From a bacterium (GTDB lineage Bacteria > Patescibacteriota > Minisyncoccia > UBA6257 > 2-01-FULL-56-20), in the NCBI GenBank assembly GCA_021827685.1, contig JAKAUM010000004.1, positions 1-51,222 of the forward strand: a stretch of 51,222 bases of DNA, read 5' to 3'. The position numbers and the translations under genes were made by a program. The notes below the pieces were generated by a model. That model worked only from the letters and a program-made list of their open reading frames with translations. It was not told the origin of the DNA and searched no databases. The first letter of the stretch is position 1; the number at the start of each line of letters is the position of its first letter. Shown here in pieces: positions 1 through 3,433 of this stretch.

Positions 1-2
1 TC

Positions 3-110
3 CACCGGCTCGTCTGGGACTACAATCACCGCCGGATCCACTCCGCGCTCAAGATGCCGCCGTTACTGTTCGCAGAGCGCTACCAGAAACTCGTCGAAAA
101 AGTGTCTTAA
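3..110 (+). mobile_element. C-terminal tail of an IS transposase / integrase-core (DDE) protein, truncated by window edge
   Basis: Frame 3 reads HRLVWDYNHRRIHSALKMPPLLFAERYQKLVEKVS*, the typical W-x-YN-xx-R-x-H-x-AL-xx-P C-terminus of IS3/IS481-type integrase-core transposases. The sequence after it, to ~127 (ctttggggtcattgaca), resembles an IS terminal inverted repeat (rc TGTCAATGACCCCAAAG). Confidence 0.75.
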
Positions 111-159
111 CTTTGGGGTCATTGACAATAAGATTATTTGTGGCGATGCGGTAGAGGTT

Positions 160-924
160 ATGAAGCGGATGCCCGACCACTCAGTTGATCTTGTGGTGAC
201 TTCACCTCCTTATGATGACATACGTGATTATAAGGGATTTACCTTTGACCTTCATACTGCGGGCGAACAGATTTATCGTGTCCTCAAGGACGGTGGAATC
301 GCAGTTATGGTTATCCAGGACCAAACCAAGAATTTCGGCAAGACGCTCACCTCGTTCCGAACTATCCTCGACTGGTGCGATAGTTTTGGATTCAAGCTAT
401 TTGAAAATGTGATTTACCGGAAATATGGCGCAGAAGGTGCGTGGTGGAATAAGCGGTTCCGCGTTGATCATGAATATATGCCCATCTTCCTTAAGGGGGA
501 GCGGCCACAGTATTTTAATAAGGAGCATCTAAAGATTCCGTCGAAGCATGGCGGGAAGACTATGACGGGCGGTGGCACCCGCCTGACCAATGGCGTGAGA
601 ATTGCTACTCGGTCAATTACGATAAATCCAACAAAGTGTCGTGGAACGATCTGGGAGTATCTCACGGCGGGTGATGGGACTCGTCTCAAACACGAACACC
701 CAGCGACATTTCCCGATAAATTACCCTATGACTTCATACAATGCTTTTCGCCCGAGGGCGGCATTGTATTAGATCCTTACGTAGGAAGTGGAACGACCAC
801 TATCGCCGCTAAGAATCTCGGCCGTCATTACATTGGCGTAGATATCGCGCCGGAGTACTGTGCATTAGCGGAAAAACGGATGAAGATAGAAAGTGGTCCT
901 GAAAATCAGAAGAAACTCTTTTAA
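160..924 (+). CDS. Site-specific DNA methyltransferase, beta-class (N4C/N6A type)
   Basis: Motif IV TSPPY near the N-terminus and SAM motif DPYVGSGTT near the C-terminus (beta order). The reading frame is open upstream to the window edge, and IDNKIICGDAVEV (121-159) is probably part of the original protein. Confidence 0.85.
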   Translation: MKRMPDHSVDLVVTSPPYDDIRDYKGFTFDLHTAGEQIYRVLKDGGIAVMVIQDQTKNFGKTLTSFRTILDWCDSFGFKLFENVIYRKYGAEGAWWNKRFRVDHEYMPIFLKGERPQYFNKEHLKIPSKHGGKTMTGGGTRLTNGVRIATRSITINPTKCRGTIWEYLTAGDGTRLKHEHPATFPDKLPYDFIQCFSPEGGIVLDPYVGSGTTTIAAKNLGRHYIGVDIAPEYCALAEKRMKIESGPENQKKLF

Positions 925-1775
925 AACTGCCCCGCGGTATCGGTGGTGTATTCAATGTCAGCGCGACTGATGATGGCGAAGGAAAGTGGGTTCTGCGCGA
1001 GGAGGGTATTGTATCGTGCCTTGCCCGGCTGCACGCTACCCTTCTGAAATTTCATAATATCGTAAGGCCCCCAGTGCCATTTCGATTCATCAAACGCCCA
1101 GCCAGTCTTCTTAGAGAGTATTTCAAGGAATATCTTTGCTTGCTGGATCGTTTCGGATCGCATTGCTCCCGTTGTTTCATTGATATTCGCAACGTGTCCC
1201 CGCGAATCGGATATCTTTATCTTATCGCCACCCCTCGCACCGCCGCCAACCGCGGCGATTTCAACAAACAACTCGCCGAGCGCCGTCATAAGTTCGTAGA
1301 CAGAATAATGCCTGTCCAAGAATATTTTTTGGAGCGGATTTCCATCGCCTGATGCGATGAGAAATTCCAACCAGCTTATGCAATTTTCCGGATAATTGAA
1401 CTGATTTTTGAATGTTCCGTCGGTATATAGTAAGGGGCTAATCGCATCCCGCTTAATATCAATCGCATGTTTTTGCGCAAGGATGCCCAGTAAAAGGTGT
1501 ATCGTGCCGAAAGGGTATTTTAATTTGAAGTCGCTTTTGAAATCGTAGTTCCGGAGGTTGTTCGCAGCGATGGCGTTTTTGAAGTTGTGCCAGTTGGAGG
1601 GGAGATCATTCTTGTCGTACATAAGCATGTGCTGGCCGATACTCTTCACGCCCTCCCGAAAAATTTCCATATCAAGAAATACGCAGTCGCGAGCGCGGAC
1701 GCCTTTCTCCACGATGAGAATTTTTCCATCGTAGAACCCCTTAACATTCCACCCCAAGTAATGGGAGGTAAGCAA
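921..1775 (-). CDS. Uncharacterised protein convergent with the methyltransferase; possible nuclease/DHH-like partner; N-terminus probably frameshifted
   Basis: 284 aa ORF overlapping the MTase 3' end by 4 bp. In-frame sequence upstream of the TTG start encodes SPDSDGLLCGLL (D-x-D-G-like motif) without a canonical start codon. Confidence 0.6.
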   Translation of the reverse strand: MLTSHYLGWNVKGFYDGKILIVEKGVRARDCVFLDMEIFREGVKSIGQHMLMYDKNDLPSNWHNFKNAIAANNLRNYDFKSDFKLKYPFGTIHLLLGILAQKHAIDIKRDAISPLLYTDGTFKNQFNYPENCISWLEFLIASGDGNPLQKIFLDRHYSVYELMTALGELFVEIAAVGGGARGGDKIKISDSRGHVANINETTGAMRSETIQQAKIFLEILSKKTGWAFDESKWHWGPYDIMKFQKGSVQPGKARYNTLLAQNPLSFAIISRADIEYTTDTAGQF

Positions 1776-2073
1776 ACCACAGAGCAGGCCATCACTGTCT
1801 GGGCTTAAGATGCAATGATGACCGCTGCATAGTCAATAACGTCGGTCGGCATTCCTCAAATTTAATGAATTTTTAATGATTTCGCAACCCGTCCCGGAAT
1901 GCATGATACTGCGACGAGATAAGGGCGGCGATGGCAAAAACATCCGACGACATCTTTTTGTGGTGTTTAGTAGTATCGCTAGCTTAATATGGGGTTTCCG
2001 GCGCGGTAAATTACCTCGTTTTGACGTATTGATTTTTCTATAAGGGCGGCTTATATTTACAGATATAAATATC

Positions 2074-3313: not shown

Positions 3314-3362
3314 AGCACATTCCAACGCTCTCGCATCGCCCTCGATACTGCACCTCTCGTAG

Positions 3363-3433
3363 CTGCCGGGCCTGGATTCGAACCAAGATACCCGCGTCCA
3401 GAGCGCGGAGTCCTACCATTAGACGACCCGGCA
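3363..3433 (-). tRNA. tRNA-Gln (CTG anticodon)
   Basis: rc TGCCGGGTCGTCTAATGGTAGGACTCCGCGCTCTGGACGCGGGTATCTTGGTTCGAATCCAGGCCCGGCAG; 7-bp acceptor, loop CTCTGGA, GGTTCGAATCC T-arm. Confidence 0.95.

Follow-up and report, generated by a model that had tools for sequence, protein, structure and literature searches.

A broken candidate restriction endonuclease gene of an apparently undescribed family, convergent with a DNA methyltransferase gene

At the beginning of contig C10 in a genome (G000) of 567 kb and 13 contigs, an open reading frame on the minus strand runs tail-to-tail into a DNA methyltransferase gene and seems to lack a proper beginning, which raises the question of what the gene encoded and in what state it now is. 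In the window, as we call the whole 51,222-nt stretch analysed here, the minus-strand frame stays open between 1832 and the stop codon at 921–923. It has no ATG, GTG, or TTG before the TTG at 1775–1773, its first start codon under translation table 11, and this TTG lies downstream of the codons for ILSPDSDG, so there is no normal start ahead of that motif; the frame upstream of and across the TTG encodes ILSPDSDGLLCGLLTSHYLGW. In another frame, an ATG at 1852–1850 opens MPTDVIDYAAVIIAS, which is terminated by a TAA at 1807–1805. The coordinates stated in the first-pass annotation of this DNA, and its remark on the absence of a good start, were all borne out on re-reading the frames.

The explanation that we consider quite probable is that the gene, hereafter R, is the broken gene of a type II-like restriction endonuclease from an undescribed family, and the partner of the convergent methyltransferase, with a predicted action set out below. 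The features of the locus are collected in Table 1.

Table 1. Features at the start of the window (R, candidate restriction endonuclease gene; A1 and A2, alignments of R-family sequences).
Feature	Positions	Strand	Remarks
3′ end of IS3-like element (transposase ORF tail ...VWDYNHRRIHSALKMPP)	1..127	+	contig starts inside the element; family assigned by reading the translated tail
Beta-class N6/N4 DNA methyltransferase domain (NKIICGDA...TSPPY...DPYVGSGTT)	127..924	+	PF01555, E 2.2e-39; first in-frame ATG at 160
Overlap of both stop codons, tail-to-tail, 4 nt	921..924	.	same in L002–L005
Intact 3′ portion of candidate gene R, 296 codons, from ILSPDSDG to the stop	921..1811	-	no other stops or indels
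Codons for ILSPDSDG, conserved motif I (DxDG)	1788..1811	-	invariant or nearly so in A1 and A2
Out-of-frame 5′ end of gene R (MPTDVIDYAAVI...)	1809..1852	-	matches ...DVIDYAAVI... of relatives; ended by the TAA at 1807–1805
Junction of the 34-nt deletion (all relatives have 11 codons + 1 nt more)	1815..1828	-	frame shifted; conserved P-W lost

The 34-nt deletion and the state of the locus

The window ORF matches proteins from five independent genomes with 58–67% identity (best segment) and E values down to 9e-145. DVIDYAAVI from the 5′ fragment also has its match in relatives (e.g., DDVIDYAAVIKKYPWLVQKDQNCILSPDSDG in locus L042, G511:C30), while the 3′ fragment opens with the nearly invariant ILSPDSDG, and by this homology both fragments are true coding sequence of a single gene. 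Counted from the D-Y pair up to the residue preceding ILSPDSDG, all 22 related loci have exactly 17 codons, or 51 nt (e.g., DYAAVIKKYPWLVQKDQNC in L042), whereas the same interval in the window is 17 nucleotides long (GCAGCGGTCATCATTGC); 34 nt, i.e., 11 codons plus one base, are therefore missing. The segment removed holds the conserved PW and about nine flanking residues, and in the AlphaFold model of the relative L003 it is placed confidently (residues 11–30, with helices 11–17 and 19–22). The two fragments belong to one gene but adjoin in none of these relatives.

Inactivation at the 5′ end, as first suggested, is supported by the frame-shifting deletion relative to the 22 relatives, but the cause is not a 1-nt insertion at the TAA, given the interval lengths and a junction that lies elsewhere (Table 1). 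The pieces beginning MPTDV and SPDSDG, expected to be contiguous in homologues, are not so when aligned, and the 34 nt between them are what the window has lost. The opposite case, that homologues start at the internal TTG and lack SPDSDG, is excluded, as the close homologues all have SPDSDG or a variant of it, preceded by about 22–40 residues. A true start at TTG 1775 was rejected for the same reason, all homologues extending through SPDSDG.

The methyltransferase side of the locus also differs from that of most relatives. The fusion protein in which relatives carry this domain (see below) aligns to the window only from its residue 220, at nt 127 (NKIICGDA); the homology begins exactly where the LexA–S24 part is fused in relatives, and the end of the IS element abuts there. 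Positions 1–127 are identical to G000:C2:1–127, and both are contig starts: a repeated IS element is where the assembly broke off. No LexA part was found in the window or elsewhere in the genome, whose assembly is 90% complete, nor was an XRE remnant found in the window. With R carrying the deletion, the methyltransferase cut off from any LexA part where the IS ends, and no XRE gene present, the system in the window is in decay, leaving at most an orphan methyltransferase.

How recent the break is can be judged from the remaining 296 codons, which have no indels relative to four relatives and show a pN of 0.23 against a pS of 0.95, synonymous change being saturated; being indel-free and strongly constrained, they point to a recent break, if it is real. 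The R gene in the window would therefore be a recently broken copy, or else an assembly artefact. We regard it as unlikely that R is intact in the organism and that the gap is an error of assembly or consensus. Such an error would fit the retention of all invariant residues, the strong purifying selection across these codons, and the incomplete 13-contig assembly from which the sequence comes; a 34-nt gap is, however, atypical of short-read errors, the IS end at nt 127 is a second, independent sign of decay, neither an XRE nor a LexA match was found for the locus, and R is broken in two further loci as well. One of these is L006, where R has a frameshift and its DxDG has changed to D-N-G-G (D35 is lost only in this copy), and the other is L042, where R stops at about residue 100 and no methyltransferase domain is present. 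Far less probable still is that the TAA is a site of phase variation or programmed frameshifting, as in the phase-variable or recoded gene suggested by the first-pass annotation. A −1 shift would connect both pieces, but the protein so made would be without the conserved P-W segment and its confidently modelled neighbours, and no shift or repeat tract occurs there in any inspected relative. As the deleted stretch includes the Pro-Trp segment, no single frameshift repairs the protein, and we return to a recent deletion in a decaying locus as the preferred reading.

Upstream of R, and divergent from it, lie a DUF5343 gene (PF17278; 2074–2727, plus strand) and a gene for a Swt1-like HEPN protein (PF18731; 2729–3313, plus strand), a pair that matches the PADLOC defence candidate PDC-M34A/B. 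As this pair adjoins the broken restriction-modification (R-M) pair, the start of the contig looks like a small defence island. A tRNA-Gln (CTG) gene (3362–3433, minus strand) lies right next to the PDC-M34 genes and to what is left of the R-M pair, and may mark an insertion hot spot.

The R family and its methyltransferase partner

Close relatives of R occur in Wolfebacteria, Wildermuthbacteria, other Paceibacteria/Parcubacteria, and one Chloroflexi. Further relatives were found in a phylum sample (four) and in a class sample (13); one of the four, L010, a weak first match (E 0.004), was judged spurious, the family motifs being absent. The family has no match in the Pfam, NCBIfam, PHROGs, or PADLOC profile libraries, sequence searches of the PDB with R, both as a single sequence and as profiles, gave chance matches only, and a tblastn search of phage and plasmid sequences with the window R protein returned nothing. 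R appears to represent an undescribed family. In alignment A2, composed of 22 R-family sequences down to 24% identity and including an Alkaliphilus plasmid protein, the invariant residues are D33-x-D35-G36, G53-x-Y55-D56, D75, G87-x-H89, N112, D159, and a few others (D33, D35, D75, H89, and D159 are in L003 numbering).

R is paired with its methyltransferase across these genomes. The methyltransferase in the window is 82% identical to the corresponding domain of L002/L004, and those of the relatives are 50–84% identical to it, with R tail-to-tail wherever the sequence suffices. Of the 22 loci of relatives beyond the window, 21 have a convergent methyltransferase beside R; the exception, L042, is itself a broken locus. 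The association is reciprocal: among 384 genomes of the Paceibacteria class, a methyltransferase of this clade (E < 1e-120) is present in 13, and R is present in the same 13 and additionally in G511. The pairing first suggested from the window alone is thus supported, and the co-occurrence with beta-class methyltransferases that was proposed as a check on it holds in all 13 genomes with a close methyltransferase. The same convergent pair is carried by a phage contig (L028).

In its layout, the unit resembles type II R-M systems with a controller (C) protein: a beta-class methyltransferase converges with a partner of ≈ 325 residues, often behind an XRE-type HTH gene (10 of the 22 relative loci have one immediately upstream of R, with HTH_3 confirmed for L002 and L004), and the distribution is patchy, some genomes having a broken partner or none. 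Unlike those systems, R matches no described restriction endonuclease family, and the relatives' methyltransferase is mostly fused to a LexA-type repressor.

More distant members were also seen. Four viral contigs of a marine phage group (L044–L047) encode short, 259-residue relatives of R, two genes away from another N6/N4 methyltransferase. On the Alkaliphilus plasmid pB6464, a distant member with DxDG ... GHH (L043:5941–7029) adjoins dnaE and an HD protein, and no methyltransferase is annotated within 6 kb of it. In L042, the stretch separating R from the LexA remnant contains an ORF whose G-T-P-D ... V-E-I-K pattern looks, by eye, like that of PD-(D/E)XK enzymes.

The LexA–methyltransferase chassis

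Most relatives of the window methyltransferase combine LexA_DNA_bind, Peptidase_S24, and N6_N4_Mtase domains in one polypeptide. Like the LexA repressor, they have the DNA-binding HTH and the S24 domain with an Ala-Gly cleavage site and a Ser/Lys dyad, and in nearly all of them the Ala-Gly site (IAAG), the serine (GxSM), and the lysine (ATLKK) are kept; unlike that repressor, they also comprise a DNA methyltransferase domain. With the LexA–S24 part alone as query, strong matches were obtained in 79 of the 384 Paceibacteria-class genomes, and all 20 loci examined, mostly from the top of the match list and not a random sample, have it fused to a domain with the methyltransferase motif [D/S]PP[Y/F]. 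Such fusions are common in Paceibacteria (L126–L153, L156–L175, and others), where they lie beside many restriction nuclease families.

The nuclease partners are exchanged from locus to locus. Among the next most similar methyltransferases of the class sample (35–39% identity), three LexA fusions adjoin an Endonuclease VII-type nuclease of ≈ 155 residues. Ten ORFs adjoining LexA–methyltransferases gave Pfam matches to TaqI, MvaI/BcnI, PvuII, MutH, Endonuclease VII (twice), HNH, and, weakly, PDDEXK; eight of the ten have a PADLOC restriction-enzyme match (“REase_II”), and seven are convergent with the methyltransferase and three in tandem. PacI/Endonuclease VII-type His-Me finger restriction endonucleases occupy the same position in the chassis as R (G647, G458, G404, G447, and G693) and are unrelated to it in sequence and motif set. 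By this analogy, the place of R is that of a restriction endonuclease, the strongest functional argument we have and one independent of fold. Because the chassis elsewhere adjoins known restriction nucleases in just this position, R is very probably the restriction endonuclease of the pair, in keeping with the nuclease-like gene of the first-pass annotation.

We believe that the chassis would be a modular R-M arrangement, possibly responsive to the SOS system, and that intact R with its methyltransferase (M) has the appearance of a defence system by which very small bacteria recognise self. The intact unit would have the order [XRE controller ->] R -> <- M, in which M in most cases bears the N-terminal LexA HTH and S24 self-cleavage domain. 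M would methylate a target sequence in host DNA, and R would recognise the same sequence and cut unmodified incoming DNA by means of metal-binding acidic and histidine residues (D33, D35, D75, H89, and D159) in a DHH-phosphoesterase-like site. The LexA–S24 part may repress the system's own promoter and cleave itself after DNA damage, which would tie R-M expression to damage of the genome. Cleavage activity, specificity, and regulation are predictions throughout.

Likeness to DHH phosphoesterases

The first-pass annotation had seen in D-x-D-G a reminder of DHH-type phosphoesterases, and this likeness is upheld by the motif order and by one AlphaFold model, while profiles do not confirm it. The order DxDG, D, G[QHN]H, D is that of the DHH phosphoesterases (RecJ, NrnA, PAP phosphatase, Cdc45; PF01368) with the first aspartate of DHH replaced by glycine. 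DHH motif I (DxD) is present in 22 of the 22 sequences of A2, and the single aspartates of motifs II and IV may have their counterparts in D75 and D159, which are invariant and stand in the same order, with a shorter spacing than in RecJ or NrnA. Motif III itself, D-H-H, is absent, all members having G87-[Q/H/N]-H89 instead, and motifs I and III are about 54 residues apart in R against about 80–90 in RecJ, NrnA, and the MnPPase-like proteins of L052–L054. The DHH profile of Pfam, PF01368, matches none of the 22 R members at E ≤ 10, and profile–profile comparison (hhalign) of R with RecJ and NrnA is not significant (E 0.36–0.44), whereas NrnA and RecJ match each other at 6.6e-8.

Two AlphaFold models were compared by fold, each built on a shallow alignment of 8 sequences. 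The better one, of L003 (pLDDT 77, pTM 0.83), has a Rossmann-like N-terminal half and a separate C-terminal domain, as DHH proteins do. Its six best PDB matches in Foldseek all belong to the DHH superfamily, namely a PAP phosphatase of the DHH type and RecJ, entries from Thermus thermophilus and S. aureus among them; RecJ2 and Cdc45 rank just below, and the scores are weak (best E 4e-3, probability 0.80, TM ≤ 0.36). A phage repair exonuclease leads its matches among viral structures, which include phage RecJ. The second model, of the phage homologue L028 (pLDDT 72), gave mixed Rossmann-like and RecJ matches and is ambiguous. Since the profile–profile comparison is not significant and the second model is ambiguous, we call R DHH-like, a resemblance in motifs and modelled fold, and not a DHH member; we lean modestly towards DHH-type chemistry for it.

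Most characterised DHH enzymes are nucleotide phosphatases or exonucleases, and R might accordingly be a phosphoesterase with another role tied to the methyltransferase, as a toxin-like nucleotide hydrolase, an oligonuclease, or a repair factor. The Alkaliphilus relative, which adjoins dnaE and not a methyltransferase, would suit such a role, but bona fide restriction endonuclease families hold the same position in the chassis and R co-occurs strictly with one methyltransferase clade, and we hold this reading to be improbable. Slightly less probable again is that R is a PD-(D/E)XK nuclease, its S-P-D33 ... Y-D56-G-K58 resembling the PD...(D/E)xK signature. P32, D33, D56, and K58 vary little or not at all in most members, and this is the fold of the majority of type II endonucleases (PMC4081073, PMC1952068). 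In the L003 model, however, a 14-residue helix (34–47) and not a beta hairpin separates PD from DGK; moreover, K58 is missing in L043 and L044, the fold was matched neither in Pfam nor among the Foldseek matches listed, and D35, D75, H89, and D159 would be left unexplained. A DHH-like restriction endonuclease therefore remains our preferred reading of R.

The folds described for type II endonucleases are PD-(D/E)XK, HNH, GIY-YIG, PLD, and half-pipe (PMC4081073, PMC1952068), and many restriction endonucleases were still unassigned to a fold according to a 2014 review, which mentions neither DHH nor LexA (PMC4081073). In the open literature searched, we found no description of a DHH member used as a restriction endonuclease, nor of the LexA–methyltransferase chassis. 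Only tentatively, as something a little short of probable, do we propose that a DHH-phosphoesterase-like protein was recruited as a restriction endonuclease, beyond the five known folds, within a modular chassis of Paceibacteria in which DNA damage retunes both modification and restriction. If true, the R family would bring into restriction a mode of catalysis hitherto familiar, among DHH enzymes, in exonucleases and phosphatases, and the chassis with its interchangeable nucleases in these minute genomes would suggest a general coupling of restriction-modification to the SOS response.

As for DHH proteins proper, no Pfam DHH protein (RecJ, NrnA) was found in the window genome; in the relatives sample, which includes that genome, only 3 of 13 have one, and among sampled members of the phylum 112 of 116 do.
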